Below the pieces are notes generated by a model that searched no databases, was not told the DNA's origin, and saw only the letters and a list, made by a program, of their open reading frames with translations. The position numbers were made by a program, and so were the translations under genes. From positions 1-44,970 of IMG/VR virus record IMGVR_UViG_3300028823_000150: 44,970 bases of DNA; one strand, 5' to 3'. Shown one piece after another: positions 14,592 through 39,761 of the stretch (positions within the stretch are counted from its first letter, which is position 1; each line of letters starts with the position of its first letter). This DNA comes from a virus.

Positions 14592-16207
14592 TAGACTCTC
14601 CTCCAGTCATCGCCCAGATCGCCCTTCACTACATGTTCTCTGTAGTCCAGCCAACAAGGTTCCCTGAGCATTATGCGATAAAGATTCTCCATCATGTGAT
14701 CGTCTTTGTCTTTGGGATGCTGTTTGGGGGACTTCTCAGAATCAGCTGAACGTCGCCATCTATCCCAAACATATCGCTGAATTTCCCACTTCGTCACCTT
14801 CAAGTTATTGAAAAAATAGATCTCCGGCATGGCCAATTCATGGCCGTCTAAGGTCCTCCGTTTACGAAGCGCCAACCCCTCTTTCACCCTCATAATTCCG
14901 GAAGAAAGGGCCTTCGGAGCCATTTGAAAAGCCAAACCGCGCTTCTGCAATTCGGTAAACAGAGTACTTGGCAAACCTTCCGTGGCGTCATGGGAGGAAC
15001 GATTCACCATATCCGCAACGTCCGCACTCGGGTCAATAAGCCTCCAGATAAGCCAATATTTGGCCTCGATGACTTTAATCCTTGTCGCGAGGTTGTCGAT
15101 GTCGAGGTCCTCAAAAAACTCGCTAAAGAAAAACTTCCTTCCTGCGGGATCAACTGCACACATAAGATATGCGTGTTCCGTGCGGGGGTGCGGATCGAGA
15201 GCGCAATAGACAGGCCAAGGTAGATTGCTCTCTTTCTGTGGGTTTGCCAGGTACTGTGGGATATCTGGAATCGCAAAGGAAGGTACATCGTGAATCTTGG
15301 AACTATAATTCTTGTAAACCAGGCCACTGAAAGAGACAAATTCACCCAACAATCGCATCCGTTTCTCTTCTTCGTCATAGATCTTTTCCTCGACCTTACT
15401 GATGGCTTTTTGGGATAAATGTGGATTATCCTTCGTGGCCATTACAAAGACTTCTATGTCCGGATCGCCTTCGGGATCAGCTTGGTCCATAAGAACCCGC
15501 TTCCCGTCCTCATCAGTGGTCATAGCGACTATCCTGGAGGCCCTTAGGTATATTCGGTCATAAACCCAAGTCATTCCATTAACCGGAGTCATCGCTATTA
15601 CTATGTCCCCGTCATAATCAGTAATACGAAGCAAGCCCTCATCGTAGTAGGTTTCGGGGGGCTCCTCATCAAATTGAATCCGATGTCGAGCAGTACCACC
15701 ATGTTTCAGGAGGGGCTGTTCGTAAGTCATTAGCTCGATCTTTGACCCATCGATAAAGGTTGCTACCTGGAGGTCCTCGGAGTAGTCTGCGAAGGCGTCA
15801 GCAGGAGCCCATTCCAGAAGTTTTGGTTTGATGATCTTCTGGATACCGTTGGGATAGTCGGTAGCGTTGATTCTTACGAACACCGGCTCGGGATGCAACT
15901 TCTCTTTTGGATACTCATCCTTCAACGAATCCGGGACTTGCTTCGTAGTATATATCTCGGTATCGACGGTCGCTGTGACCGATTTCGATGCCCGGTTGCC
16001 GCCTAGAAGCAGGCGGATCATTGCTTTGCTTTTATGAAACTCGCGCGCTACAGGAGACACCGGCTCATACAACTTGAACTTGCATTCACCGGAAATGGCC
16101 AGATCCTCGGTGGCGTTGAGCATCTTGACCAGATCTTCACGCGTCATATTTTTAAGGCTGGCCTCGACATACTCCTTGGACAACCCCTTAAGCGCGCCCT
16201 TTACCAA
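14591..16207 (-). CDS. terL: Terminase large subunit
   Basis: A 538-residue ATPase-nuclease. The P-loop at 69-76 is GGNRASKS, in which the Gly before the Lys is Ser. Walker B is IQFDEEPPE (about 193-201). The nuclease domain shows three acidic clusters: ALDPHPRTEHAYL, WRLIDPSADVADM and DKDDHMMENLYR, matching the RNase-H-like fold that cuts concatemers. The start is a TTG overlapping the protease stop, with AGGAG eight bases upstream; no usable ATG lies near. It powers DNA packaging through the portal encoded next. Confidence 0.9.
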   Translation of the reverse strand: MVKGALKGLSKEYVEASLKNMTREDLVKMLNATEDLAISGECKFKLYEPVSPVAREFHKSKAMIRLLLGGNRASKSVTATVDTEIYTTKQVPDSLKDEYPKEKLHPEPVFVRINATDYPNGIQKIIKPKLLEWAPADAFADYSEDLQVATFIDGSKIELMTYEQPLLKHGGTARHRIQFDEEPPETYYDEGLLRITDYDGDIVIAMTPVNGMTWVYDRIYLRASRIVAMTTDEDGKRVLMDQADPEGDPDIEVFVMATKDNPHLSQKAISKVEEKIYDEEEKRMRLLGEFVSFSGLVYKNYSSKIHDVPSFAIPDIPQYLANPQKESNLPWPVYCALDPHPRTEHAYLMCAVDPAGRKFFFSEFFEDLDIDNLATRIKVIEAKYWLIWRLIDPSADVADMVNRSSHDATEGLPSTLFTELQKRGLAFQMAPKALSSGIMRVKEGLALRKRRTLDGHELAMPEIYFFNNLKVTKWEIQRYVWDRWRRSADSEKSPKQHPKDKDDHMMENLYRIMLREPCWLDYREHVVKGDLGDDWRRV

Positions 16208-17151
16208 CTCATTGGCTCCTTATAGACCTCAATCCCACGAGTCTGCAGGTAGGGGATCAGAATGTCGATTCTCGCGGCGTATGTGTACCACGGGCTCCCG
16301 GCCCGGCAAATCCCAACAATGTATGGCTGGCCGTTAATGAAAGCAAACAACGGGGACCCGGAGTCACCAGGAATAATCTTTAAATTAAGAGAAACGTCAT
16401 TCGGCGAAAACCACGGAAGCTCATGCTCCATTCCCTCAATAAGTATGGCATGATGTTTTGCCAAAGTTCCGTAGTTGACCTGGTGATTATTTTCGTTAAG
16501 TTCTCCCTCATACCTGGACATGACCATGTTGGCAACCGACCATCCGGTAAAGAGGCACTCAGACGAAGTAATCTTATATGGGGCTTCAAATGGATGTCTG
16601 GAGGTCATTATCTTAAGAACGGCCACATCAGCATCCCTATCAGAATAGATAAGCTCGGCAGGATACTCATTTACATAGATTGTGGTTGAAATAACCTTGG
16701 TGACTGGACCCACCCACCGCATGTAGGTATGTTCTGGGTCTTTCATTTCCACACCTTTTGGGACAACTACATGCGCCGCGGTTACAATAAGGTCCTTCCC
16801 AAGATAGAAACCAGACCCCTCAAGTCGGTAGAAACCAATTCCTGGCTTCCACTTCGTGAACATAAAATCATTCCCAATTCCAGGATAGGTACCTTCCGCA
16901 ACTCCGGTAGTTATGATATGAATAATGAAGGTGTCCATATTTGGAGTAATATCTTTATTATCCACATCCGCCCACTCGGGAAACTGCCCTGGTAGCTGAT
17001 CGAAGGCGGCGGCGCTCCCAACCGCGCACATGACAAGAGCGCATACCAAGATGAAGATAATCGGCCATAGCATGAATCCCCAAAATACCTTCCAGGATGG
17101 AGGTACTGCCTGAGGAGCATGAACCCACCTATCTACCATCTTCTGTCCCAT
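16201..17151 (-). CDS. Trypsin-like serine protease with N-terminal signal/anchor
   Basis: A 316-residue protein. Residues about 25-50 are a hydrophobic segment ending CAVGSAAAFD, compatible with a signal peptide (AxA site) or an anchor. The rest is a chymotrypsin-fold protease. IVTAAHVV carries His (about 127), SDRDADVAVLKI carries Asp (about 175) and IPGDSGSPLF carries the nucleophile Ser (about 264). There is no PDZ domain. Such proteases are not the usual phage prohead proteases. The gene overlaps the upstream gene by about 23 bases and the terminase by 7, so it is cotranslated with packaging genes. ATG follows GGAGGAGAGTG; the GTG one codon earlier is possible. It may act in the periplasm or envelope, or in head maturation. 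Confidence 0.85.
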   Translation of the reverse strand: MGQKMVDRWVHAPQAVPPSWKVFWGFMLWPIIFILVCALVMCAVGSAAAFDQLPGQFPEWADVDNKDITPNMDTFIIHIITTGVAEGTYPGIGNDFMFTKWKPGIGFYRLEGSGFYLGKDLIVTAAHVVVPKGVEMKDPEHTYMRWVGPVTKVISTTIYVNEYPAELIYSDRDADVAVLKIMTSRHPFEAPYKITSSECLFTGWSVANMVMSRYEGELNENNHQVNYGTLAKHHAILIEGMEHELPWFSPNDVSLNLKIIPGDSGSPLFAFINGQPYIVGICRAGSPWYTYAARIDILIPYLQTRGIEVYKEPMSW

Positions 17152-17620
17152 CACTCTCCTCCTTTACTTCTTGTTCTGCCGCATTCAAGATGCGGTTCAT
17201 AAGCATCTGCCTCAGCTCCGTATCAGAATACTGAGCTGTGACAATTGCTCCTTTCACGGAGATGTTCTGGGTGGGCTTGGGCGCTAAACGGTCAAGAACT
17301 TCGGTGCCCACTGTATTCCGGAGCCATACTGAAGCCTTTGGACTTGTCAGGATCGCATCTTTAAGTGCCAGGGCTTTGGGCGCCATCCCCAGGAGAAACC
17401 TCTGAATGTCTCTTACTTGCTCTACTTTGAAATTTTCGCACATTTTAAGGAATTTACTTCTTGATGCAACCTGGGTGCTGAAGGCCTTCTTGAGACTTCC
17501 TTTTGTTATTTCGCCAGGCCTGGGCTTGCGGGTTTTGCGCGGAGTGAAGGTTAATTGCTCTTCATCTTTGGCATTAGCATCCCTTGGGATGCGATTCGCA
17601 GCTCGCTGCTCATTCTTCAT
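17129..17620 (-). CDS. Putative terminase small subunit
   Basis: A 163-residue protein, first in the late operon. A basic, disordered N-terminus (residues 1-45, TFTPRKTRKPRPGE) is followed by helices (FLKMCENFKVEQVRDIQRFL and later ELRQMLMNRILNAAEQE), ending acidic. Small terminases often combine a DNA-binding N-part with a helical oligomerisation part, and this position upstream of terL suits one. No diagnostic motif was seen, so the name rests on position. The start at 17620 has GGGAGG, and the first 15 codons contain a hairpin element that recurs upstream. Confidence 0.5.
   Translation of the reverse strand: MKNEQRAANRIPRDANAKDEEQLTFTPRKTRKPRPGEITKGSLKKAFSTQVASRSKFLKMCENFKVEQVRDIQRFLLGMAPKALALKDAILTSPKASVWLRNTVGTEVLDRLAPKPTQNISVKGAIVTAQYSDTELRQMLMNRILNAAEQEVKEESDGTEDGR
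17571..17614. repeat. Twin-hairpin element, copy 1 (inside the first late gene)
   Basis: In order: GCATTA, a 16-base hairpin (GCATCCC/GGGATGC), GATTC, then the near-palindrome GCAGCTCGCTGC and TCATT. A second copy with the same flanks but a different hairpin stem lies at 17702-17744. The stem has changed on both sides while keeping pairing, as expected of a conserved structure. Confidence 0.7.
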
Positions 17621-23148: not shown

Positions 23149-23519
23149 ACGCAGCCGCCCACAAAGTCATCACCCCGGACATGGAAGCATTCATGAAGAT
23201 CTACTTGTCCATTCCATTCGGCGGTTCTCCAAAGAATGTCGACGAGGTATGGGAAGAGGCTAAGAAATTCTGCCAGTATCTGAGGGAGGCAGGATCCGCA
23301 TTCATGCTGGTTGTCGCCCCACCGGGTACAGGCAGAGACTTGCCCAAGGAGGGAAAGATATTCATGTTCACCGACATGAAGGGCGGAGGATTAGTCGACA
23401 GTTGTTACCTACTTCTCGACTCCAGTCAGTTACTCATCCCGTTCGTGAACGCTTGTTTGATCCGACTTTCTAACAGCATGAATTTTGAGAACCCAGATGG
23501 CCCGGGGTTCCACGCTTGA
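23115..23519 (+). CDS. Unknown protein between primase and helicase
   Basis: A 134-residue protein overlapping the primase end by 34 bases. Features are an acidic Lys/Asp-rich start, an FGGSPKNVDEVWEEAKKF helix and FMLVVAPPGTGRDL. The last looks P-loop-like but lacks the GK(S/T) sequence. Position suggests a helicase or primase accessory factor, possibly a loader. No family recognised. Confidence 0.5.
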   Translation: MDDPKKKDEDLDAAAHKVITPDMEAFMKIYLSIPFGGSPKNVDEVWEEAKKFCQYLREAGSAFMLVVAPPGTGRDLPKEGKIFMFTDMKGGGLVDSCYLLLDSSQLLIPFVNACLIRLSNSMNFENPDGPGFHA

Positions 23520-24730
23520 AACTATTAGAACGCCAGCTCCTGAACATACTAGCTAACTACCCATTCTACAAACAAGTTAGAGACTATGTTCGGGATGATA
23601 TTTTTGTGACCGATGAAGCACGGCTAATTTTCTCGTGCATGAAAGAAGTGTATGAGAAGTATCGCCGGACTTTCGATTGGGGTGAGATCAAGACCCTGCT
23701 CTATGAACGGGTAGACCAGGAGTCAAAGAAAGCGGAGTTCCGTAAGTTCCTTCGCCAAGTTCAAGCCTCGTCCATCGGTTCAGACCTGGCTATGGACCTA
23801 CTGGTCAAGACCAGGCAAAAGGCAATGGTTCGCCGCATCATCCAGGAAGATGTGATTCCATTTCTGGACGGCCCGGAAGCCTTGCCTCTTGACAGGATAA
23901 AGGATCGGCTGCTCAGTGTCCAAATGACTAACAGGGCCGAAGAGATATACAACTATTTGGACGTGAAATCAAGGAAGCATTACGATCAAACCCAGGCATG
24001 CCCTACCGGCCTTTCGAGGGTGGACAGTGTTATGTACGGCGGTTTATATCCGGGCGAACTTGGTGAGCTTAGCGGAGCCCCGGAAGACGGGAAGACAATG
24101 ATCGCGATAAACCTCTGTATCTCCCCACTCATTGAGGGCCTGGAGGTCTTCTACATTACGTTGGACGAAACCGACGAAGTAATAGCCAAACGCTTTGATC
24201 TCCGTATTCTTGGAAAAAAGGCAGAGGACCTGAACCTAGGGAAGGAGCGATTTCCATCATGGGTAAATGGCCTCAAGATCATAGACAAATCCGGAAGCTG
24301 TACTGTAGACCAGGTGGCTAGTGTGATCGAGCGGTATGGTGTTCCTGGAATGCTGATGATAGATGGGGGAGACCTAATGCTCTCCTCATCCCGCAAGACG
24401 GAACGACGACATCAACTCGGGGAAATCTACGCGGATTATTTAAGATTATCCCGGAAATTTAAGTTGCCAGTTTGGGTCACAACGCAAAGCACGGCGCGCT
24501 CAAAAGATAGCGAGAATAAAAAAGGGACGGACCTGTCCGAGGCGAAACTAGAAAAGTTATCTGTGGCATCGGCTGTGATCATGATCTCCAAAACTGAGGA
24601 TCCAACAATCATCAAGCTGCGGTTTGCCAAGCTTCGCCGTCCACCAGGCCCTCGATCCATTTTGATAGAAGTAGACAGAGCCAAGCAAATGATCAGAGAC
24701 ACGGGAGGGATGGAAGATGAGAGTGTATAG
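23516..24730 (+). CDS. DnaB-like replicative helicase
   Basis: A 404-residue protein. Residues 1-140 fit the DnaB N-terminal helical domain. The RecA-like core has the Walker A GAPEDGKT (187-194), Walker B GMLMIDGGD (about 280-288) and the WVTTQST motif that follows in hexameric helicases. The start is a TTG overlapping the preceding stop (TTGA); no suitable ATG exists nearby. It unwinds DNA at the fork with the adjacent primase. The C-terminus overlaps the next gene by 14 bases. Confidence 0.85.
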   Translation: MKLLERQLLNILANYPFYKQVRDYVRDDIFVTDEARLIFSCMKEVYEKYRRTFDWGEIKTLLYERVDQESKKAEFRKFLRQVQASSIGSDLAMDLLVKTRQKAMVRRIIQEDVIPFLDGPEALPLDRIKDRLLSVQMTNRAEEIYNYLDVKSRKHYDQTQACPTGLSRVDSVMYGGLYPGELGELSGAPEDGKTMIAINLCISPLIEGLEVFYITLDETDEVIAKRFDLRILGKKAEDLNLGKERFPSWVNGLKIIDKSGSCTVDQVASVIERYGVPGMLMIDGGDLMLSSSRKTERRHQLGEIYADYLRLSRKFKLPVWVTTQSTARSKDSENKKGTDLSEAKLEKLSVASAVIMISKTEDPTIIKLRFAKLRRPPGPRSILIEVDRAKQMIRDTGGMEDESV

Positions 24731-25463
24731 AAATTTAGTTGAAGCTATGAAGGAAACGGAAAGGGATCTTTTTGAAATGGGTGTCCTAGTTAAAGGCATC
24801 AAATCCCAGGGCAAAGACATAGGAAAGGCCGGGTGGACCAGGGAGATAATAGGACATACCTATTCCATACCGTTAACCTGTGCTGAACAGTGGTCCCAGA
24901 TAGAACCGGCATTGGAAGCCCTGGAAATCCGCCCCGGAAGAGGAGAAGACTTCTGCTCGTACATACTCATGGAGATAAGTGATCGACTAGGTCGGACCGG
25001 CAAACAAAATCCTGGGAATGCCTACCTTTGGAGATTAGGATACTGGAGAAACCACATGGAGCTTGATGGCAAATTCTCCTATACCTATGACGAACGGATT
25101 GCTCCGTGGCTGGATAATATCATTTCTCTCCTTCGCAGAGATCCCGGAACTCGCCAGGCTATCCTTCCCATCTGGCGTACCTCCCCCGACAATCCCAGAG
25201 TCGTGCAGGGAACACGAAGAGTGCCCTGCTCCATGTATTACCAGTTCTTCATCAGGGATCGTTTTGAAGGAACTGTTCTTGACATGCACTATGTCATGCG
25301 GTCTTGCGATCTCTACACTCATTTTCCGTTTGATGTGGTGTTTGCTTGTAAACTCGGGTTGTATGTAGGAAAACGGTTGGGCATAGCCCCGGGTCGCTTG
25401 GTCCATACCGTTGGCTCATTACATACTTACTACTCTGACCTGGAGAAAAGAGGCATATTCTAA
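24717..25463 (+). CDS. Thymidylate-synthase-family enzyme, dCMP hydroxymethylase-like
   Basis: A 248-residue protein. The nucleophile is Cys171 in RRVPCSMYYQF. The substrate motif is RSCDLYTHFPFD (195-206), where the final Asp206 falls exactly at the thymidylate-synthase Asn177 position. T4 dCMP hydroxymethylase also has Asp there and prefers dCMP. The phrase VGSLHTY (His236, Tyr238) matches T4 gp42 VGSLHVY. The protein ends about ten residues later, shorter than thymidylate synthase (about 264) and close to T4 gp42 (246). The reaction would be hydroxymethylation (or methylation) of dCMP with a folate donor. A dUMP enzyme is less likely. Coupled by overlap to helicase and to the next gene. 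Confidence 0.75.
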   Translation: MRVYRNLVEAMKETERDLFEMGVLVKGIKSQGKDIGKAGWTREIIGHTYSIPLTCAEQWSQIEPALEALEIRPGRGEDFCSYILMEISDRLGRTGKQNPGNAYLWRLGYWRNHMELDGKFSYTYDERIAPWLDNIISLLRRDPGTRQAILPIWRTSPDNPRVVQGTRRVPCSMYYQFFIRDRFEGTVLDMHYVMRSCDLYTHFPFDVVFACKLGLYVGKRLGIAPGRLVHTVGSLHTYYSDLEKRGIF

Positions 25464-25690
25464 TGAAAGATGTAATCCGGGCATGGCGGGGAAAGGAAGA
25501 TTTTATCAGAGTTGTGGATGCCGCCAGGACTTATTTAGCGCGAGCACTAGATGACGTTGACCATAACGATTTTACCACAGCTCATACCAAAGTCAAAGAA
25601 GCCAGGTCGTTATTGGGCGTGGCCCTGGTGTATATTGGGGAGGGTATACATGAAACTCACGACCTATCAGATAAAAGAACCACACCATAA
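25463..25690 (+). CDS. Small helical protein
   Basis: A 75-residue helical protein (KEDFIRVVDAARTYLARALD; HTKVKEARSLLGVALVYIG). Begins in a TAATG overlap with the thymidylate-synthase-like gene and overlaps the next gene by 41 bases. Function unknown; location suggests a role linked to nucleotide metabolism. Confidence 0.55.
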   Translation: MKDVIRAWRGKEDFIRVVDAARTYLARALDDVDHNDFTTAHTKVKEARSLLGVALVYIGEGIHETHDLSDKRTTP

Positions 25691-26276
25691 TCAGCTTGTC
25701 TACTTCTGCCGTGGTGGAAATGATAAGCAACTTAGGGAGTTAATCACCAGAGTAGACGGCGGTATAGACGAGGACCCCGGGGAATTTGGTAGTGGTATAG
25801 TTATTCCTAACCGGATGAATCCAAGGAAGGCTCCGACTTTCTGGATTTGGATAAAGCATTGGCATGGATCCATTGGGTGCTATAAGTTTATGGACCATGA
25901 AGTCACGCATCTGATCCAGTATCTAATGGACTGGTTAGAGATTCCGTGGAGTGATGATACCATGGAGCCAATAGCCGCCTTGCATGAATACTACTTTGGG
26001 ATGATACTAACCGTATTGCGTAAAGGAGGAACGCCATGTACATTTTCGCATCCACCGCCTGGGACTTTTGGAAAAGGCTCAACGAGACAATGTTCACGTC
26101 CCAGAAAGCCCGCGGCTATTGCTCAGGCTACCGCAAAACTCTCTTCTCTGTTGACGGAGAAACCGCCAAGTGGGGAACCCTTGATCTTAAGTTCGAAGAC
26201 ATTGGATACAAAGAAAGAAAACGGGACCAGCTCTATGAATTCTACTATCCCGAAGAAGGAATTGACAAACTCCTAG
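25650..26276 (+). CDS. Protein with HExxH zinc-peptidase motif
   Basis: A 208-residue protein from the ATG at 25650. HEVTH at 83-87 lies in a helix and is followed 19 residues later by Glu106 (DTMEPIAALHEYYFG), the layout of a zincin metallopeptidase or a degenerate relative common in phage early regions. The last 80 residues are encoded in DNA that also encodes the next gene in another frame (241-base overlap) and look low in structure, so the functional protein may end near residue 130. Lies between the two thymidylate-synthase-family genes. Confidence 0.55.
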   Translation: MKLTTYQIKEPHHNQLVYFCRGGNDKQLRELITRVDGGIDEDPGEFGSGIVIPNRMNPRKAPTFWIWIKHWHGSIGCYKFMDHEVTHLIQYLMDWLEIPWSDDTMEPIAALHEYYFGMILTVLRKGGTPCTFSHPPPGTFGKGSTRQCSRPRKPAAIAQATAKLSSLLTEKPPSGEPLILSSKTLDTKKENGTSSMNSTIPKKELTNS

Positions 26277-26857
26277 AGAAAATGCAAACCCAGGGCCACA
26301 AGATATGCTCCCTTGCCCTGGATATGGTGGGCCCAAAGAAAAAGGAAGAAGTGGTAGTAGCCACTAAGGGTCCATGTCTTAAGACCCTGGTATTCAATAT
26401 GGCCAGGAACCAAACCTACGGCGTCCATGTATTCTATCGAACAACGGAGTGCACCAAGAAATTTCTGGCCGACCTTATATTTCTGGATTTGGTCTTTAGA
26501 AGAATTTACCCCGGAGGCACCCACCGTGGTTTGCATGTTTCATTCCATTTCGCGTCCATCTATTGCCATGTCAAACAATGGCCGCTACTGGACATTTTGC
26601 TGGGGGATGAATGCATGCGGTGGAAATGGTTGGACGAGGATCGTGAGGAAAAAATTGCAAGTTATATGGCCGGCCTCAATGAGGGAAGGATTTCATCTTA
26701 CGGAATGGTACGCAATGGCGAACGTTGGTACCTGAAAAGAAAGGGGATACCAGAATGTACAGAACAGGACAATCCAATTTCAACGCCAAGCAAATCCGCA
26801 GAAATCAAGGGCGACTCAGAAGACTTCGCTTTCCCGGGCCGCTACGAGCGCCGCTAA
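26036..26857 (+). CDS. Second thymidylate-synthase-superfamily protein
   Basis: A 273-residue protein with weaker resemblance to the family. GPCLKTLVF carries a candidate nucleophile Cys114, comparable to GPCL of archaeal thymidylate synthases. The motif YRTTECTKKFLAD (Arg135 to Asp146) aligns with RSxD...PFN and again places Asp at the Asn177 position. SFHFASIY fits the SHxAHIY strand, with Ser174 replacing the usual His. The pattern suggests a cytosine-specific or non-catalytic paralogue of the 24717 enzyme. AAAGGAGGAACGCC precedes the ATG. Superfamily assignment is inference. Confidence 0.5.
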   Translation: MYIFASTAWDFWKRLNETMFTSQKARGYCSGYRKTLFSVDGETAKWGTLDLKFEDIGYKERKRDQLYEFYYPEEGIDKLLEKMQTQGHKICSLALDMVGPKKKEEVVVATKGPCLKTLVFNMARNQTYGVHVFYRTTECTKKFLADLIFLDLVFRRIYPGGTHRGLHVSFHFASIYCHVKQWPLLDILLGDECMRWKWLDEDREEKIASYMAGLNEGRISSYGMVRNGERWYLKRKGIPECTEQDNPISTPSKSAEIKGDSEDFAFPGRYERR

Positions 26858-27003
26858 AGCCGATGGGCTTCTGGGATTTATGGAGAGCCCTGCCCTGGCA
26901 TAAACTTCCCAAATTGATCTACGCCTGGACCAGAATGTCGTACAAAAACTGGAAAGCCAAGCGAGATCAAAAGAAGAGAGTTTACAAAAGTCTCACAAGA
27001 TGA
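26755..27003 (+). CDS. Small basic protein
   Basis: An 82-residue, very basic protein (QIRRNQGRLRRLRFPGP; KNWKAKRDQKKRVYK). It overlaps the previous gene by 103 bases, so its start is uncertain; GGGGATACCAG precedes the ATG at 26755. Its 3' end overlaps the promoter of the polymerase gene. Possibly nucleic-acid binding. Confidence 0.45.
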   Translation: MYRTGQSNFNAKQIRRNQGRLRRLRFPGPLRAPLKPMGFWDLWRALPWHKLPKLIYAWTRMSYKNWKAKRDQKKRVYKSLTR

Positions 27004-27009
27004 TATAAT
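26981..27009 (+). promoter_or_regulatory. Near-consensus promoter before the DNA polymerase
   Basis: TTTACA, exactly 17 bases, TATAAT. The predicted start, seven bases after the -10 box, is the A of the polymerase ATG at 27016. No Shine-Dalgarno site is present and an in-frame stop lies at 27001, so the transcript would be leaderless. Confidence 0.75.
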
Positions 27010-27015
27010 TACATT

Positions 27016-29574
27016 ATGGGAACGATTAAAGATCGCGTCAGGAACCCAGAATGTAAGCTTTGTGATCTCCACAAGACTGCTGAATACATCTGTCTCATTG
27101 GTACCGGCCCGTCGCAGCCGGACATCCTTGGGGTAGGGGAGGCTCCTGGACAGCGAGAAGATGATTCTGGCAGGGCCTTTGTGGGGAAGGCGGGACAGCG
27201 CCTTAACCTCATTCTTCAGCACGTTGGGCTCAGCCGGGAGCGTGATATCTTCATCTGCAATGCAGTGAAATGTCGCCCTCCCGAGAACAGAAAGCCCACC
27301 GTTCGGGAGGTTAAGGCCTGTCGCTGCTATCTTGAAAAGGAGATCGAACTTCTTAAACCAAAGATGATTGTCTGCTTTGGCCGAGTGGCTGCTGATTCTG
27401 TGGTAGGTCAGGGCTTAAGTGTTGAGGATCAACGAAGAAGAATATTCAAGTGGGGTGGGACTCCAGTAGTAGTTACCTATCACCCCTCTATCATCATGCA
27501 CCGTGGCTCCAAGTTTGGGGTGGTCATAGCGGAGGACATAGAATGGGGAATAAAGCGAATCATAGAGGGGGAACCAGAAGAGGAGGATCCGTTCTTTTAC
27601 ACGACCGACGATGTCCTTCTAAAAGACTACCTCCGGACCTCTACCTTCTGGTCGTTAGATGTCGAAACCAACAACACTTTGGAATTCATGGACCCATCCA
27701 TGAGGTTAGTATCCGCTGCTGTCTCCCCTGCGAAAAACGTAGCAATTGTGAAATTGGGGGAAGAGGCCGCGGTAAGTTTATGCCGAGAAGTTTTATCAAA
27801 TCCAAAGAACGTTGTATGCGGGCACAATATCAAAGCGGACTTAAGGTGGTTAAGGCGGCGAGGGATCAAACGATCGCAGATACAAGCGAAGATCTTGGAC
27901 ACTATGGTATTGGCAAGTCTGGACGACGAAAACTATCCCAACAGGAAACTGCAGCACCTTGCCATGATTCACTTAGGTGCAAAGCCCTGGAAGGACCAAG
28001 CCGAAGAAGTAGGACCAGCCGGCCTAAAAGAAGAAGACCTAATCAAATATAATGGTAAGGATGTTATCTGGACTAGACGCTTAGCTAAGTTCTTCCTCAA
28101 GAGAATCGACAAGCAGAACCTTTGGAAGTCATTAAATATAGATATGGAGACCATCAAGGTTCTCACAGAAATAGAACTGGATGGCATTCAACTGGACCGC
28201 TCTATATTCTATGACCTGGTCCAGGCATACGAAAAGAAGCTCAAGAAACTAAGATCCAAGTTACCGATTAAGAATCCTGAATCAACAGAACAGGTGTCTG
28301 ATTATATATTTAATGCCCTGAACTTAGTCCCCTTACCAGAAGAGAAGCCAGGAAAGAGGGGTAAATACTCCACCAGAGAAGAAGTCCTGATTAAAATGGA
28401 GGAGGAAGATAACAGTGGATTCATCAAGCGTCTGTTGCGTTACCGAATGTATGCAACAAGGAAGAAAATGTTTCTTGATGGACTCGATGGAGAAAGTGGC
28501 ATACTGCCTTTCATTGATTATCGAGGTAGGATTCACCCCACTTTCAACGTCGCAAAGGTCGCGAAAGGTGGGGGAGATAAGGACTCTGATGGGGGAACTA
28601 CAAGCGGTCGAACGTCGTGCAAAGATCCTAACCTACAACAGTGGCCAAGAGAGCAAGAAGACATCCGACGAGAGCTGAACATCAAACGAATGGTGATCTC
28701 TCGTTGGGAGGGAGGGGAAATAGGTGAAGCCGACTTTCGCCAAGGTGAGGTATTTCTTGCGGCTAATGAAAGCGGTGACAAAGCAATGCTTGGGGTCCTG
28801 GCTAAAGGTGGAGATTTCCATCAGCAGGCCGCGGCTGATACGCTTCATGATGGCGAAACTGAGAAGGTAACCAAGTTTGAAAGGAAGGCGGCTAAGGCCG
28901 TAGTCTTTGGAAAGATATATCGGGCGGGAATCAATAAGATTATGAGGGCCTTGAACCTGCCGTATGAAACGGCGGAGCATTGGTTCAATACCTTTACCCG
29001 TAGATTCAAGGGGCTAGAGGTATTCATGAAGGACCGAGAATCCATTATCCTGGAACAGAAATGGATTCGTAACTCTGCCGGTAGAATCAGGCATTTACCC
29101 GGCGCATCTAAGTTCACGGCAGAAGGTCGTGAGATGATACGATCGGGATGCAATATGCTGATCCAGGGCCTACTGGGGGATATAGCAAAATGGGGTATGG
29201 TCAGATTCTATTGGGCCCTTAAATCTGAGGGCCTAAAGACTAGGGTCCTAGGAATAATCCATGATGCTATTCTATTTGATATATATCCTGGGGAAAGGAA
29301 CAGGGCCGTATATCTAGTAGCAAGGGAACTGGAGGCCGCCCAACATGATATCTGTAAGTTAAAGATTTCTCTGACTGTGGATGTAAGTGTCGGGCCTAAT
29401 TGGCTTGACCAGAAAAAACTCAAGAGGGAGGAATATGACGGCAAGTCGACAGGCGCGAAAGAAATACAACATGCTGATGAGCCCGGCCAAACGGAAGGCA
29501 AGAAATCAGCGCAAACAGCTCAACAAATTATGGAGGGAACATGGCAGGAAAAACTGATTTGGAAGGCAGCTTAA
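27016..29574 (+). CDS. Uracil-DNA glycosylase (family 4)-DNA polymerase A fusion
   Basis: An 852-residue protein of three parts. Residues 1-185 are a family-4 uracil-DNA glycosylase: GEAPGQREDDSGRAFVG (41-57), YHPS (155-158), and iron-sulfur Cys at 13, 16, 86 and 102. Residues 208-365 are a 3'-5' exonuclease with LDVET (D215, E217), GHNIKADLRW (D275) and YNGKD (D349). Residues 500-820 are family A polymerase: motif A ADFRQGEV (D573), motif B R623-K627-F631-Y635, motif C HDA (H749, D750). The usual HDE Glu is Ala here. Similar UDG-polymerase fusions are known in SPO1-type phages. It replicates DNA and would excise uracil or recognise it. Confidence 0.9.
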   Translation: MGTIKDRVRNPECKLCDLHKTAEYICLIGTGPSQPDILGVGEAPGQREDDSGRAFVGKAGQRLNLILQHVGLSRERDIFICNAVKCRPPENRKPTVREVKACRCYLEKEIELLKPKMIVCFGRVAADSVVGQGLSVEDQRRRIFKWGGTPVVVTYHPSIIMHRGSKFGVVIAEDIEWGIKRIIEGEPEEEDPFFYTTDDVLLKDYLRTSTFWSLDVETNNTLEFMDPSMRLVSAAVSPAKNVAIVKLGEEAAVSLCREVLSNPKNVVCGHNIKADLRWLRRRGIKRSQIQAKILDTMVLASLDDENYPNRKLQHLAMIHLGAKPWKDQAEEVGPAGLKEEDLIKYNGKDVIWTRRLAKFFLKRIDKQNLWKSLNIDMETIKVLTEIELDGIQLDRSIFYDLVQAYEKKLKKLRSKLPIKNPESTEQVSDYIFNALNLVPLPEEKPGKRGKYSTREEVLIKMEEEDNSGFIKRLLRYRMYATRKKMFLDGLDGESGILPFIDYRGRIHPTFNVAKVAKGGGDKDSDGGTTSGRTSCKDPNLQQWPREQEDIRRELNIKRMVISRWEGGEIGEADFRQGEVFLAANESGDKAMLGVLAKGGDFHQQAAADTLHDGETEKVTKFERKAAKAVVFGKIYRAGINKIMRALNLPYETAEHWFNTFTRRFKGLEVFMKDRESIILEQKWIRNSAGRIRHLPGASKFTAEGREMIRSGCNMLIQGLLGDIAKWGMVRFYWALKSEGLKTRVLGIIHDAILFDIYPGERNRAVYLVARELEAAQHDICKLKISLTVDVSVGPNWLDQKKLKREEYDGKSTGAKEIQHADEPGQTEGKKSAQTAQQIMEGTWQEKLIWKAA

Positions 29575-30263
29575 AGGAACTGGAGGGGTTGGAGTCAGAG
29601 AATTACGCCACCATCCAGGAGGGGAAGAACACACTCCGCATCCTTCCGGCTTGGACCCAGAAGGGCCCGCATGCTGGGAGATTCTTCTTCAAGGCCATCC
29701 TTCATTATGGGTTCACCAGTGAGGGAAGGAACAGGGCATTCCCCTGCATGCGGATGTTTGACTCGGCAGCCGATTGCCCCGTCTGTCAGTTCATTGAGGC
29801 CCTGAAGGAAGAGGGGTCCAAAGAGCTGGACAAGATCGCCGCCCGGCTTCGTCCCCAGTCCAGGTATTACGTGAACGTTCTCAATCGAAGATCAGCTTCC
29901 CCGGCTCCTCTCATCTATGGGCTTAGAACCAGGATGATGAAGACCCTGCGGAGTTATCTGCAGGACCCGGACTACGGGGACATCACTGATCCTGAAGACG
30001 GCCGTGACATTGTCATCGAGCGAACTGGTCAGGGCCTTCAGACCCGCTATGAAATTCGCATCAAGCCCAAGACTTCGCCCATAGGAGTTGAAGGCTGGGA
30101 GTCTAAGCTCCACAAGTTATCGAAGGAAGTAGTGGAGAAGATCGATGAGAAGGGCCTGCGTTCAAGACTCCAGGAATCCTACGGCAAATTGTACTCAAAG
30201 GTAACAGGAATTACCGCTGAGCCCGCTGAGTCCGAAGACGAGGATGACGAAGATGGTGAATGA
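29541..30263 (+). CDS. gp32-like single-stranded DNA-binding protein
   Basis: A 240-residue protein. A T4 gp32-type zinc site is visible: His55, Cys69, Cys79 and Cys82 in CPVC. An OB-fold core surrounds it, with RYYVNVL and KTLRSYLQDPDYGDITD characteristic of this group. The C-terminal tail is acidic (ESEDEDDEDGE), as needed for partner recruitment. It coats ssDNA at the fork. It overlaps the polymerase end by 34 bases with GGAGGG before the ATG. Confidence 0.85.
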   Translation: MAGKTDLEGSLKELEGLESENYATIQEGKNTLRILPAWTQKGPHAGRFFFKAILHYGFTSEGRNRAFPCMRMFDSAADCPVCQFIEALKEEGSKELDKIAARLRPQSRYYVNVLNRRSASPAPLIYGLRTRMMKTLRSYLQDPDYGDITDPEDGRDIVIERTGQGLQTRYEIRIKPKTSPIGVEGWESKLHKLSKEVVEKIDEKGLRSRLQESYGKLYSKVTGITAEPAESEDEDDEDGE

Positions 30264-31371
30264 GACCAAGGTGCTCCTGAGACAGGCGGACACCCTGGCC
30301 TTTTCCGCTAGTCGGAGTGGACATCCCTGCCCCCGCCACATCTTTTATGGCATAATGAAAGTGCCGAGGAAGATACCGAAGCGAACCCAGAAGATCTTTG
30401 AGGAGGGGCATCGCCAAGAGGAATTAACTCTCAAGGAGTTGAAGGCCGATGGGATTCGCTTTAAACATTCGGTTCTTGGGTCGGGGCAACAAGAATACGC
30501 CCGAGATGTACAACTTAAAGGGAAACCAAAATTTCTTGTTACCGCACATCCGGACGCCATTTACAACAGAGGATTCTCATCCGGGGTATTACTCCCAGGT
30601 TGCCCCATTGAAATCAAGGGGCTTCACCAGAGAACATGGCAGGGTATAAAGGACTATGCAACTATACCCCCTAACTACTATGCCCAAATCCAAATCCAGA
30701 TGTTTGTCCTTGATGCGCCGGCTTGCCTTTTCGTTGCCAGGAACAAAGGCTGGGGCAAGAACAGGCCTGATGATGGTAGGCATAAACGGATCGTGGTTCT
30801 TAGGGACGAGGAGTGTCTTAGAAAGATTTTTAAGGCGCTGTCCAGAATAGCCCAGGGCGTATGCGTGGACCGTGAACTACCCCGGCCGCTTTGGCCACCC
30901 GGAGATGACGCTGAATGTGACAAGTGCTTTTATCTTCAGCGTTGTCTCCTGGATGAGGAGGGGGATAGGAAGTTAGAGAAGCGAGAACCAAAGCCACTAC
31001 TGGAAATAGCCGAGCCGATCTTTGTCAAGAAACTCCATTCGCTCTTCCTATTCAAGGAGATGCTTAAGCGGCTGGAAAGTCTAGAAGATCGCCTGACTTC
31101 CGAATTGAAAAACTTTATGAAGGAACATCAGGTGAAAGAACTTCTGGGTGGCGCCGTTCGTTATTCGCTTCGTGATGTATCCAAACAAGTCCCGGACATG
31201 GATGAAATCCGTAAGCGGCTTGGTGGAGAAATACCAATGAAGGCTAATAACTATCAAGCCCTATACAAAACCAAAGTCAGGGATCTAACAGAGGAGGAAT
31301 ACCAGCTTATCAAGGGGGACATACCAAAGCCACGGGCCCTCCTTATAGGAGCAACTGATGAATGTGAGTGA
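30244..31371 (+). CDS. Cas4/RecB-like PD-(D/E)XK exonuclease with Fe-S cluster
   Basis: A 375-residue protein. The nuclease core shows TAHPD (D104), EIKG (E123, K125) and a QIQIQ stretch (about 148-152) of the Cas4/AddB family. Four cysteines (29, 225, 228, 234) fit an Fe-S cluster that closes the fold. C-terminal residues 250-375 form a helical extension (LFLFKEMLKRLESLEDRLTS). It overlaps the SSB gene by 20 bases; an ATG at 30253 is an alternative start. It probably processes DNA ends in recombination-dependent replication. Confidence 0.8.
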   Translation: MTKMVNETKVLLRQADTLAFSASRSGHPCPRHIFYGIMKVPRKIPKRTQKIFEEGHRQEELTLKELKADGIRFKHSVLGSGQQEYARDVQLKGKPKFLVTAHPDAIYNRGFSSGVLLPGCPIEIKGLHQRTWQGIKDYATIPPNYYAQIQIQMFVLDAPACLFVARNKGWGKNRPDDGRHKRIVVLRDEECLRKIFKALSRIAQGVCVDRELPRPLWPPGDDAECDKCFYLQRCLLDEEGDRKLEKREPKPLLEIAEPIFVKKLHSLFLFKEMLKRLESLEDRLTSELKNFMKEHQVKELLGGAVRYSLRDVSKQVPDMDEIRKRLGGEIPMKANNYQALYKTKVRDLTEEEYQLIKGDIPKPRALLIGATDECE

Positions 31372-31786
31372 TGTGGAACAAATTGCCCCTCCCGTAGGGG
31401 ATATGTTAGAGGAAATCTTTCGCCGGCAAAAAGAGTTATTGGATAAGTACATTCCGATAGAGATAAGGAATGGAAGGAGTTTTCCGGTATCCAGGCCCCC
31501 ATTTAAAACGGGTGATCTAGATCATCCGGCCGGCCAAGCTTTCCTGAAGGATGAAATTATGCGGGTGGTCATTGAATTAGTGGAGGCTGCTGACTGCCTG
31601 AAGAATAAATATTGGAAGACTACTCAGATGCAAACTGACCTCTTCCACTTTATCGAGGAATTGGTTGACGCCTTCCACTTCTTCGTAGAACTCATGATTT
31701 GGCTGGATGTTGATGCCAGAAAATTGAGGGATATGTATCTGAAAAAGAATGCGGTGAATCAATTCCGGCAAAGGACAAACTATTGA
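31358..31786 (+). CDS. All-alpha NTP pyrophosphatase, dimeric dUTPase/MazG-like
   Basis: A 142-residue protein with the all-alpha pyrophosphatase motifs: IELVEAAD (E73, E76) and EELVDAFHFFVEL (E101, D104), then MYLKKNAVNQFRQ, the dUTPase-type C-terminal signature. It hydrolyses dUTP and possibly dCTP to the monophosphate; T4 dCTPase-dUTPase gp56 belongs to the same superfamily. In this genome it would supply dUMP or dCMP for the thymidylate-synthase-family enzymes and remove dUTP. Substrate specificity cannot be read from sequence. Confidence 0.75.
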   Translation: MNVSDVEQIAPPVGDMLEEIFRRQKELLDKYIPIEIRNGRSFPVSRPPFKTGDLDHPAGQAFLKDEIMRVVIELVEAADCLKNKYWKTTQMQTDLFHFIEELVDAFHFFVELMIWLDVDARKLRDMYLKKNAVNQFRQRTNY

Positions 31787-37413: not shown

Positions 37414-38496
37414 CTAGAATCCAAATTTGGCCTTATATTCACCCAGTATTCTCGCCAGGGTCTCTTCGCCACCCGGGGCTCCGGCTAGCTTTTCTTGAGC
37501 CGACCTTCGAGCAGCGGCCAAGGCCTTCTCCGATTTCTTCTTCCACTTCACATCAGTTTCCTCAAGAGCCGGACTAAGTCGCTTTCTTCCAGGCATATAC
37601 TTCCCACGGTACTTAGAGATAGTGGCGGCTGGAACTAGTTTAGCCTGGGTTTCTGCCCAAGCTCTTAGTCTTGGATTCTCGGAATAGGTAGCTAGATACC
37701 CCATCAGGTCCTGAAAGTTATGAACATTGGCTTCATGATATAGAGTGTTTAGCCAGGCTTCTGACGGAGTACCTTTTCCCATTCCCTTTGGTAAGGTGTT
37801 GTATACCGGGCCCACCGGTTCCGCAACAATGGCCGCCTTCATCCCCTCGACATCGTCAACCTTTATTTGTGGGGCGATGTATTCATGCCAAATCTCTTTT
37901 CCTCTTTTGGTTTTTTCTAGGCGTAGATAAAGATCACCCAGATCTTGCTGATACATGCCGGCCATAATGGTTCCTGGTTGTACCTGTCCCGGTGTTCGTA
38001 TTTCTTGCAGGACATCTCTTGGTAGATAGATTAACTCGTCCAGATGTTCAAGACTTCCAGCCGGGCGCATAGCCTCCAGTTCCTTCATCAGACCTTTACT
38101 ATACGGATTCCAACGACCTCCCTTCTTCAACGCTCCAATAACACTTCGGAAAAACTGCGGCCTGCTGATGGATGCCATAGCCAAGGCCGATCCCCCAGCT
38201 CCAGCCCCCGGAAGATAGGGACCAAGAAAGCTAGCTCCCTCAGCTAATGACCCCGGAATTAACGATCCAAGAATGGATTTCTGTAACCAATTTTCTTGGC
38301 CAGGAGATAGTTCTTCAAGCTTTTGTTGAGCGGTCTGTTGGGCAGTTCGAAGGCCGGTGTCAATATTGCCCAGAGAGCCGGGCCATGGTGTTTGACCAGG
38401 ACCTAGGTAGGATCCGACCGAAGCCGCCGGATTTATGGAGCTTAGCGGAATACCTAATACCTTGTTTAGAATAAGTGCCCGTTCTTCTGGACTCAT
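37414..38496 (-). CDS. Putative virion protein near the ejection genes
   Basis: A 360-residue protein. The N-terminal 120 residues are Gly/Pro/Ala-rich with hydrophobic patches (GPYLPGAGAGGSALAMA). The middle and C-terminus are helical (LEHLDELIYLPRDVLQE; KSEKALAAARRSAQEKLA). It starts in a four-base overlap with the ATP-grasp gene. Composition and operon suggest an internal virion protein. A short HEANVH occurs but is not a zincin motif. Confidence 0.55.
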   Translation of the reverse strand: MSPEERALILNKVLGIPLSSINPAASVGSYLGPGQTPWPGSLGNIDTGLRTAQQTAQQKLEELSPGQENWLQKSILGSLIPGSLAEGASFLGPYLPGAGAGGSALAMASISRPQFFRSVIGALKKGGRWNPYSKGLMKELEAMRPAGSLEHLDELIYLPRDVLQEIRTPGQVQPGTIMAGMYQQDLGDLYLRLEKTKRGKEIWHEYIAPQIKVDDVEGMKAAIVAEPVGPVYNTLPKGMGKGTPSEAWLNTLYHEANVHNFQDLMGYLATYSENPRLRAWAETQAKLVPAATISKYRGKYMPGRKRLSPALEETDVKWKKKSEKALAAARRSAQEKLAGAPGGEETLARILGEYKAKFGF

Positions 38497-39761
38497 GTAA
38501 ACAACCTCTTGTAATACTTAGTAGGAAGTTCCCAGCCATCGGTTCGATATTGCCTATTAGCTAGGGTCAACTTCTTGAGGTGCTTATCTACTTTATCTCT
38601 GGCTTCCTCGATTGTCTTTCCCTTGTCGGATACTTCCATAACCACCCCGTCGGAGCCGGCCGTCACAAGGTCGTAATTCTTATCCCTTTGCACGTCAAGT
38701 AACCAGCAATGTTCAAAATCCGGTATAACCCCTACAGGGATGCCCGCTGATTCCTCGTAGATCTTCGCCTTTGCCTCCTTGTCTGCAACATGAAGTGGAT
38801 AAGGAGGAATAGAAACACGCACGCAATAAGCAAAATTATCGTTAAGTTTCGCCTTAGGAATCCTACCATTTGCAACGGCCTCGAAAAGAGTTGCCGGGTC
38901 TCCTTCCAGTAATTCAAGAAAAGCATATATAGCATTGTATCCCAACCTCGCTGTAAATTCTAGGCCCCTTGGTTCACCATTTACGATAATAGAATTGATG
39001 TCCAAGGGACCTGAATATTGATTCTCTTCCAGGATCCTAAGCAACCTAGGAGTAAATAACTTATTCAGGATCCTAGTATCCTGGGCCTTAAATACTATGG
39101 ACGAGGCACATCCGATACTTGGCCCAAGATCGTCGTTCATCATCTTCTTACGCTCAAAAGTATGAGTGCTAAGGGGCGGTATGGGACGGCCTTTGGAAAA
39201 CCACATTTCGGTGGAAATCTCCGGGCCCTCGAAGGCCTCCTGCAATAAACAAGGTGTCCTGGCCGGCAGTTGCTTCTGATCCAGGAGATACTCCAGGTAC
39301 ATAGTCATGTGGTCTTTGCTGGGAGAAACATAGGTAAAAGAAGTGTCTTCGTTTCCCAGGGGCTTAAGGACCCATCGCCCTTTTAGCTCTTTGAGGGCCT
39401 TTCGACATTCTTCCAAAGTATGGAACTCATGAGTTTCCCCGACATTGATACCAACCCTACGCATCGTACGAAGGCCAAAACTACGATCCAATTCGAGTTT
39501 GTCCTGGAATTTACTAGCCCCAAATACAGGGTACTTGTCCCTTAGATCCTCGGCCAATTCCCCGTTTTCTACCATATCAAACAGGACTATAGTATCAGGG
39601 GACAAGCCATCTTCATATGCCTTGACCTTGGATAAGATTCCTGTATATTGATCCCTGAACTCCTCGTGGTCAATATATACCTGGACCTTATGTCCCCCCG
39701 CCTGGAGCTTATCGGCTAGCCCCAATGCATCCCCATGTAAGGACCAGAGTAAGAATTTCAT
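38493..39761 (-). CDS. PurD-like ATP-grasp ligase
   Basis: A 422-residue protein close in length to PurD (429). Residues 80-105 (FGASKFQDKLELDRSF) match PurD's GPTAGAAQLEGSKAF. WVLKPLG (K133) is the nucleotide lysine. DLGPSIG (211-217) matches DTGPNTGG. LEFTARLG (267-274) matches IEFNCRFG, with Thr in place of the Mg-binding Asn. A C-terminal domain with SDGVVMEVSDKGKTIEEA matches PurD's. It would ligate a carboxylate to an amine using ATP. It sits with four-base overlaps between virion genes, unusual for a purine enzyme; a modified-base or virion-modifying role is possible. Confidence 0.8.
   Translation of the reverse strand: MKFLLWSLHGDALGLADKLQAGGHKVQVYIDHEEFRDQYTGILSKVKAYEDGLSPDTIVLFDMVENGELAEDLRDKYPVFGASKFQDKLELDRSFGLRTMRRVGINVGETHEFHTLEECRKALKELKGRWVLKPLGNEDTSFTYVSPSKDHMTMYLEYLLDQKQLPARTPCLLQEAFEGPEISTEMWFSKGRPIPPLSTHTFERKKMMNDDLGPSIGCASSIVFKAQDTRILNKLFTPRLLRILEENQYSGPLDINSIIVNGEPRGLEFTARLGYNAIYAFLELLEGDPATLFEAVANGRIPKAKLNDNFAYCVRVSIPPYPLHVADKEAKAKIYEESAGIPVGVIPDFEHCWLLDVQRDKNYDLVTAGSDGVVMEVSDKGKTIEEARDKVDKHLKKLTLANRQYRTDGWELPTKYYKRLFT

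Follow-up and report, generated by a model that had tools for sequence, protein, structure and literature searches.

In this study, we analysed the viral record IMGVR_UViG_3300028823_000150 of IMG/VR over its whole length of 44,970 bases (hereafter, the window), which is classed as linear and so may be an incomplete fragment, and found that it encodes two proteins of the thymidylate synthase (TS) superfamily, TS1 and a highly divergent partner, TS2. TS1, TS2, and an all-alpha nucleoside triphosphate pyrophosphatase (NTP-PPase) make up a conserved module, in which TS1 and TS2 are a conserved pair. The original prediction for this DNA, a modified-cytosine nucleotide system beside the replication genes, did not see the two proteins as such a pair. 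The cytosine reading is the best of those considered, but the stronger finding is the widespread, uncharacterised two-protein TS-superfamily module itself. Its genes in the window are as follows.

24717 to 25463, plus strand: TS1, TS-superfamily enzyme of 248 amino acids (Pfam PF00303, family conservation, AlphaFold2 (AF2) model)
26036 to 26857, plus strand: TS2, highly divergent TS-superfamily partner of 273 amino acids (AF2 model, fold search, comparison with the TS1 profile, conservation)
31358 to 31786, plus strand: all-alpha NTP-PPase (dUTPase_2) of 142 amino acids, candidate dCTPase/dUTPase (PF08761, PHROG_12184)

A scan of IMG/VR with the TS1 alignment gave 521 relatives, of which the best 80 loci were kept, so that the proportions given here describe the close neighbourhood of the query. 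TS2 was detected within the fetched flanks of 62 of the 80 loci, on the same strand in every case (62/62), at a median gap of 185 nucleotides and within 1.2 kb in 59. Near TS1, an NTP-PPase gene is found in 74 loci, a thymidylate kinase (TMK)-like gene in 47, a deoxycytidine monophosphate (dCMP) deaminase gene in 28, and a trimeric dUTPase gene in 19, and all the loci with the trimeric dUTPase retain the NTP-PPase (19/19). In a control set of 42 loci fetched by an unrelated structural gene of the window, that of the virion protein P0023, a single TS2 was found, again beside a TS1, and all 18 named phage records matched by TS2 were also matched by TS1. The module is present in cultured phages of Gordonia, Mycobacterium, Streptomyces, Serratia, Yersinia, Pseudomonas, and Brevundimonas, where TS2 is mostly annotated as hypothetical. 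For example, the gene order in Gordonia phage Cozz, Streptomyces phage Zuko, and Mycobacterium phage JacoRen57 is kinase, NTP-PPase, hypothetical protein, TS1, and DNA polymerase I, and the hypothetical protein beside TS1 is TS2 (E from 5e-26 to 1e-20); a dCMP deaminase gene follows TS1 in Cozz and Zuko, but not in JacoRen57. In Cozz (L139:6926-8783), gp45 is recorded as ThyX but is actually TS1, and a lysin B gene is annotated within the nucleotide module of this phage.

TS1 matches PF00303 above the cut-off (E=2.5e-14), and its AF2 model (predicted local distance difference test score (pLDDT) 92) matches the folds of TS, MilA, and AfhB in the PDB. Its scores fall below the cut-off of every NCBIfam thymidylate synthase equivalog, with 41.7 bits for TIGR03284 against 108.35 required. 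Among 75 non-redundant relatives, Glu43, Tyr124, Arg146, Cys171, Arg195, and Asp198 are invariant, and His236 is kept in 73. As judged from the alignment, Cys171 would be the nucleophile and Asp206 the pyrimidine-selecting residue. The latter position is Asp in 74/75, replacing the Asn of TS, and aligns with Asp179 of T4 dCMP hydroxymethylase, whereas the dUMP hydroxymethylase SPO1 gp29 has Asn there. The sole exception, an Asn, comes from L040, a locus that encodes a canonical TS besides its TS1; this second enzyme has Leu at the position three before the catalytic Cys (Cys-3) as well, and thus provides an internal control of the alignment.

An acid at Cys-3 and a Ser two positions ahead of the catalytic Tyr have been described as marks of hydroxymethylation (T4 ternary-complex paper, PMC6400193), and in the sequences we compared the acid is Asp in T4, SPO1, and MilA, and Glu in RB69/AfhB. 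In contrast, TS1 has Arg at Cys-3 (Arg168; 74/75), and the residue two before Tyr124 is Tyr122 (69/75) or His (5/75) rather than Ser or Thr, giving Tyr-x-Tyr in place of Ser-x-Tyr. The positions of ThyA Asn177 and His147 are occupied by Asp206 and Ser172, respectively, and TS1 ends about 12 residues past its SLH motif (SLHTY), lacking the C-terminal tail with which TS seals its folate site. This tail is missing in T4 dCMP hydroxymethylase, too (PMC6400193). Asp198 and Glu43, which match folate-handling residues, are kept in TS1; in the RB69/HY126 hydroxylase, by contrast, Asn takes the place of Asp198. Neither half of the RB69/AfhB signature (Glu at Cys-3 and RSxN) is found in TS1. The loop before the Cys contains a nearly invariant Asp158 (70/75), which, to speculate, could take over water activation. 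By the signatures tested, TS1 falls outside the T4-type dCMP hydroxymethylases, the TS enzymes, and the RB69-type 5-hydroxy-dCMP synthases.

TS2 matched no Pfam or NCBIfam family and gave a weak match (E=2.4e-4) to PHROG_34294, a family with no assigned function; PF00303 matches 1 of 51 TS2 members, at E=0.085. The AF2 model, made with 51 window and IMG/VR sequences, has a pLDDT of 86 and a predicted template modelling score of 0.84, and its top 50 Foldseek matches in the PDB are all TS-superfamily structures. VIA-align superposed it on HY126 AfhB (9iqu) with Z 14.1 over 182 residues at 3.8 A, and on MilA with Z 13.0. HHalign pairs Cys114, Arg135, and Asp146 of TS2 with Cys171, Arg195, and Asp206 of TS1, at a probability of 75% that is modest by itself. 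The model thus suggests that TS2 belongs to the TS fold. Although the identity of its relatives to the window TS2 is mostly 10 to 27%, Tyr70, Cys114, and Asp146, the last being the pyrimidine-selecting position, are unchanged across 59 relatives (59/59), and selection therefore maintains a second active site of the Asp type or, at the least, its nucleotide-binding core. No conserved Arg pair of its own was seen in the TS2 alignment. The original prediction had counted two TS-superfamily proteins, both with Asp at the residue that selects the pyrimidine, and this is borne out, by PF00303 for TS1 and by the predicted fold and the profile for TS2. A direct IMG/VR scan with the window TS2 (P0002) found nothing, nor did one with the window protein P0021, and one with P0004 gave no confirmed relative; one of the alignments made (A2) contained no conserved stretch. 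The start codon of TS2, ATG at 26036, is preceded by a good Shine-Dalgarno sequence (AAAGGAGG), and the TS2 relatives start at nearly the same point. TS2 is therefore a gene in its own right, and a frameshift fusing 25551-26276 to it was considered and rejected on these grounds.

Some loci have more elaborate arrangements. Locus L040 (2667-6352) carries four consecutive TS-superfamily genes, namely TS2, the canonical TS (Asn, with Leu at Cys-3), TS2, and TS1, and two TS2 copies lie near one TS1 in L008, L054, L061, and L088, which suggests that TS2 paralogues have diverged in role. Two loci without detected TS2 (L055:10368-11297 and L037:9596-10531) encode a second, longer TS1-like protein that lacks the conserved His236 and is possibly a replacement for TS2. 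Among the loci that share P0023, L098 (15664-16638, minus strand) and L100 (14598-15494, minus strand) encode TS homologues with Asp at both Cys-3 and the selecting position, a hydroxymethylase signature, whereas L103 carries TS1 and TS2. This looks like an exchange of equivalent modules, although identity in the virion gene is low, at about 30%.

In the window, the virion genes occupy the minus strand and the replication genes the plus strand, and the module is accompanied by the following genes.

23516 to 24730, plus strand: DnaB-like replicative helicase (PHROG_19, PF03796)
25650 to 26276, plus strand: unrelated small protein containing a DHEVTH stretch, encoded between TS1 and TS2
27016 to 29574, plus strand: fusion of family-4 uracil-DNA glycosylase (UDG), 3'-5' exonuclease, and family-A DNA polymerase, 852 amino acids (Pfam, NCBIfam)
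29541 to 30263, plus strand: single-strand DNA-binding protein, gp32-like (PF08804, PHROG_1192)
30244 to 31371, plus strand: Cas4/RecE-like exonuclease (PHROG_1990, PHROG_434)

The UDG-fused polymerase and the all-alpha dUTPase/dCTPase-like enzyme of the original prediction were both recovered. In the former, the UDG domain scores above the family-4 cut-off, the exonuclease and DNA_pol_A domains are matched as well, and related UDG domains gave 29 matches in the fetched loci, mostly in proteins of the size of Pol A. The latter matches PF08761 with 45.7 bits (cut-off 22.9), contains the paired metal motif ELVE...ELVD, and is a candidate dCTPase/dUTPase. These genes do not quite surround the polymerase as had been described: both TS-like genes are upstream, and the NTP-PPase alone is downstream. 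No homologue of the small gene at 25650-26276 was found in the fetched loci; the final 80 codons, which run over TS2 in another frame, show poor coding bias, and a frameshift may be the reason. The DNA polymerase I of phage DP SC_2_H4_2017 (L008:10441-14706) has 1421 amino acids, with an apparent intein or other inserts. In the virion module of the window, a trypsin-like serine protease domain (16201-17154, minus strand) adjoins a terminase-like gene. A PurD-like ATP-grasp protein (38493-39761, minus strand) is also encoded among the virion genes, with GARS_A above its cut-off and TIGR00877 below it at 80 bits, and has distant relatives in MW202796 and in gut phage contigs. It was rejected as a linked hypermodification ligase, as the records of its relatives are without detected TS1 or TS2.

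A dedicated cytosine-nucleotide pathway beside the replication genes, the core of the original prediction, is well supported because of the Asp in both enzymes, the linkage of the NTP-PPase, the dCMP deaminase or kinase of the relatives, the true TS or ThyX encoded in some of these, and a link to published metagenomic data. In that work (MetaGPA), environmental contigs with modified cytosine were enriched in TS homologues with Asp at position 177, as well as in phosphoribosyl-ATP-pyrophosphohydrolase and dCMP deaminase domains (PMC8670742). ThyX occurs alongside TS1 in the relatives MW202455 and DP SC_2_H4, and a canonical TS in L040; hence, TS1 is not needed for making deoxythymidine monophosphate (dTMP) in these phages. 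Likewise, retention of the NTP-PPase where a separate dUTPase is present points to a further substrate, for example dCTP. In contrast, the T4-like 5-hydroxymethylcytosine step of the original prediction lacks such support, with Arg at Cys-3 in 74/75 and Tyr-x-Tyr; since the defining residue tested, the acid at Cys-3, is absent, this label goes beyond the evidence. As had also been noted, neither a hydroxymethylated-nucleotide (dHMP) kinase nor a glucosyltransferase is apparent, with no kinase or glycosyltransferase match among the window proteins scanned and a TMK-like gene near TS1 in the relatives counted above. Kinase and hypermodification functions would thus have to come from host enzymes or from genes that escaped recognition.

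Overall, we consider it somewhat probable that the module serves nucleotide modification and acts on dCMP. In such a scenario, the NTP-PPase would hydrolyse dCTP, and perhaps dUTP, to the monophosphate, Cys171 of TS1 would attack C6 of dCMP with Asp206 selecting cytosine, and TS1 would move a one-carbon unit from methylene-tetrahydrofolate to C5, yielding a 5-substituted dCMP, most likely hydroxymethyl, with methyl or another substituent possible. TS2, a dedicated partner with the fold of TS1, may combine with it into a heteromeric enzyme, or may be an enzyme in its own right, using either the nucleotide on which TS1 acts or its modified form. TS active sites borrow phosphate-binding Arg residues from the other subunit (PMC6400193, for T4), and this use of residues from both subunits makes a TS1-TS2 heteromer attractive. 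The triphosphate would then be made by a kinase, which many relatives encode themselves and which the host presumably supplies here, and the neighbouring UDG-Pol A would incorporate it. More tentatively, and with a lower probability, TS1 and TS2 may depend on each other as the two proteins of one pyrimidine-modifying enzyme. This enzyme would represent a new TS-superfamily branch, in which an active-site Arg replaces the hydroxymethylase acid, and would make an undescribed C5-modified cytosine in phages of several bacterial phyla.

Several points weigh against action on dCMP. The characterised hydroxymethylases (T4, SPO1, and MilA) and the 5-hydroxy-dCMP synthase are acidic at the position where TS1 has Arg, and the argument from Asp draws by analogy on mutants and a few enzymes, none of them in the TS1 family. 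TS2 was not detected in 18 of the 80 loci, the window has no recognised gene for a sugar or other hypermodification, and we looked for published restriction or mass-spectrometry data on the relatives and found none. Furthermore, the dCMP deaminase and dUTPase-like neighbours would fit a deoxyuridine monophosphate (dUMP) route equally well. In that route, which would resemble that of SPO1, TS1 and TS2 would convert dUMP, supplied by the deaminase and the NTP-PPase, to a modified precursor of thymidine, either 5-hydroxymethyl-dUMP or another, and the TMK-like kinase and the UDG-polymerase would complete the process. In SPO1, the dUMP hydroxymethylase is indeed TS-like and the polymerase contains a UDG domain, SPO1 gp29 shares the TRQA phosphate motif with TS1, and the relatives encode the dCMP deaminase, the dUTPase-type NTP-PPase, and TMK. 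However, the selecting position is Asn in SPO1 gp29 and Asp in TS1 (74/75), Cys-3 is Asp in the former and Arg in the latter, and T4 has a dCMP deaminase yet modifies cytosine, and we regard the dUMP route as unlikely.

Two other routes start from dCMP, and each seems to us quite improbable. TS1 may be a dCMP methylase making 5-methyl-dCMP, like the route inferred for the Xp12 group, which we compared through the Xp12 relative DLP4. The DLP4 homologue has Asp at the selecting position and adjoins an NTP-PPase and a dCMP deaminase, and TS N177D mutants yield 5-methyl-dCMP (PMC8670742), but the DLP4 enzyme retains a long C-terminal region and lies near dihydrofolate reductase (DHFR), whereas TS1 stops right past SLHTY and the window has no recognised DHFR. 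Alternatively, TS1 may be an RB69/HY126-type dCMP 5-hydroxylase producing 5-hydroxycytosine, perhaps glycosylated afterwards. The HY126 AfhB/dCMP hydroxylase is the nearest solved structure to both TS1 and TS2, the TS1 profile scores RB69 slightly over SPO1 and T4, and in RB69, too, a thymidylate kinase gene lies nearby; nevertheless, the Arg at Cys-3, Asp198, and Glu43 of TS1 correspond in RB69 to Glu, Asn, and no matching residue, respectively. That TS1 and TS2 are ordinary or decayed thymidylate synthases feeding only dTTP synthesis, as the PF00303 match and the annotation in many phages would have it, is the least probable of all, given the missing Asn177, His147, and C-terminal tail, the scores under all NCBIfam TS cut-offs, the ThyX or canonical TS encoded in some relatives, and the invariance of active-site residues over 75 sequences, which argues against decay.

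The module is common, judging by the yield of a single IMG/VR scan, and occurs in cultured, freely exchanged phages, in whose present annotation TS1 is merely a thymidylate synthase. If cytosine is modified as we propose, dozens of Gordonia and other actinophages, as well as phages of Serratia, Pseudomonas, and Yersinia, would have modified genomes, with a bearing on restriction, CRISPR sensitivity, and sequencing.

Among known systems, the MilA CMP 5-hydroxymethylase (PDB 5JNH, 5B6D) resembles TS1 in its TS fold, cytosine-selecting Asp, and RxxD motif, but has a longer C-terminal region, the Asp at Cys-3, and CMP as its substrate. SPO1 gp29 shares the TS fold, and the SPO1 polymerase has a UDG domain like that of the window, whereas gp29 also has a longer C-terminal region. 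The RB69/HY126 5-hydroxy-dCMP synthase (AfhB, PDB 9IQU, 9IQC), the best structural match, has the selecting Asp and a short C-terminus, and differs in its Glu at Cys-3 and the Asn of RSxN; the PDB titles describe a flavin-dependent hydroxylase. The MetaGPA contigs (PMC8670742) share with the window the Asp at the 177 position and a phosphoribosyl-ATP-pyrophosphohydrolase-type domain, and with its relatives the dCMP deaminase, whereas no carbamoyltransferase was recognised in the window. T4 gp42 dCMP hydroxymethylase (PDB 1B5D, 6A9A) differs in having Asp145 at Cys-3 and Ser-x-Tyr, and, unlike T4, the window pairs TS1 with TS2 and has no recognised kinase or glucosyltransferase. Like TS1, however, T4 gp42 has the TS fold with a Cys nucleophile and an Asp for cytosine, RSxD and GSLH motifs, and no C-terminal tail, and the T4 catalytic Cys, Glu60, Tyr96, RSxD, and Asp179 all have equivalents in TS1; T4 gp42, too, works beside a dCTP/dUTP pyrophosphatase.

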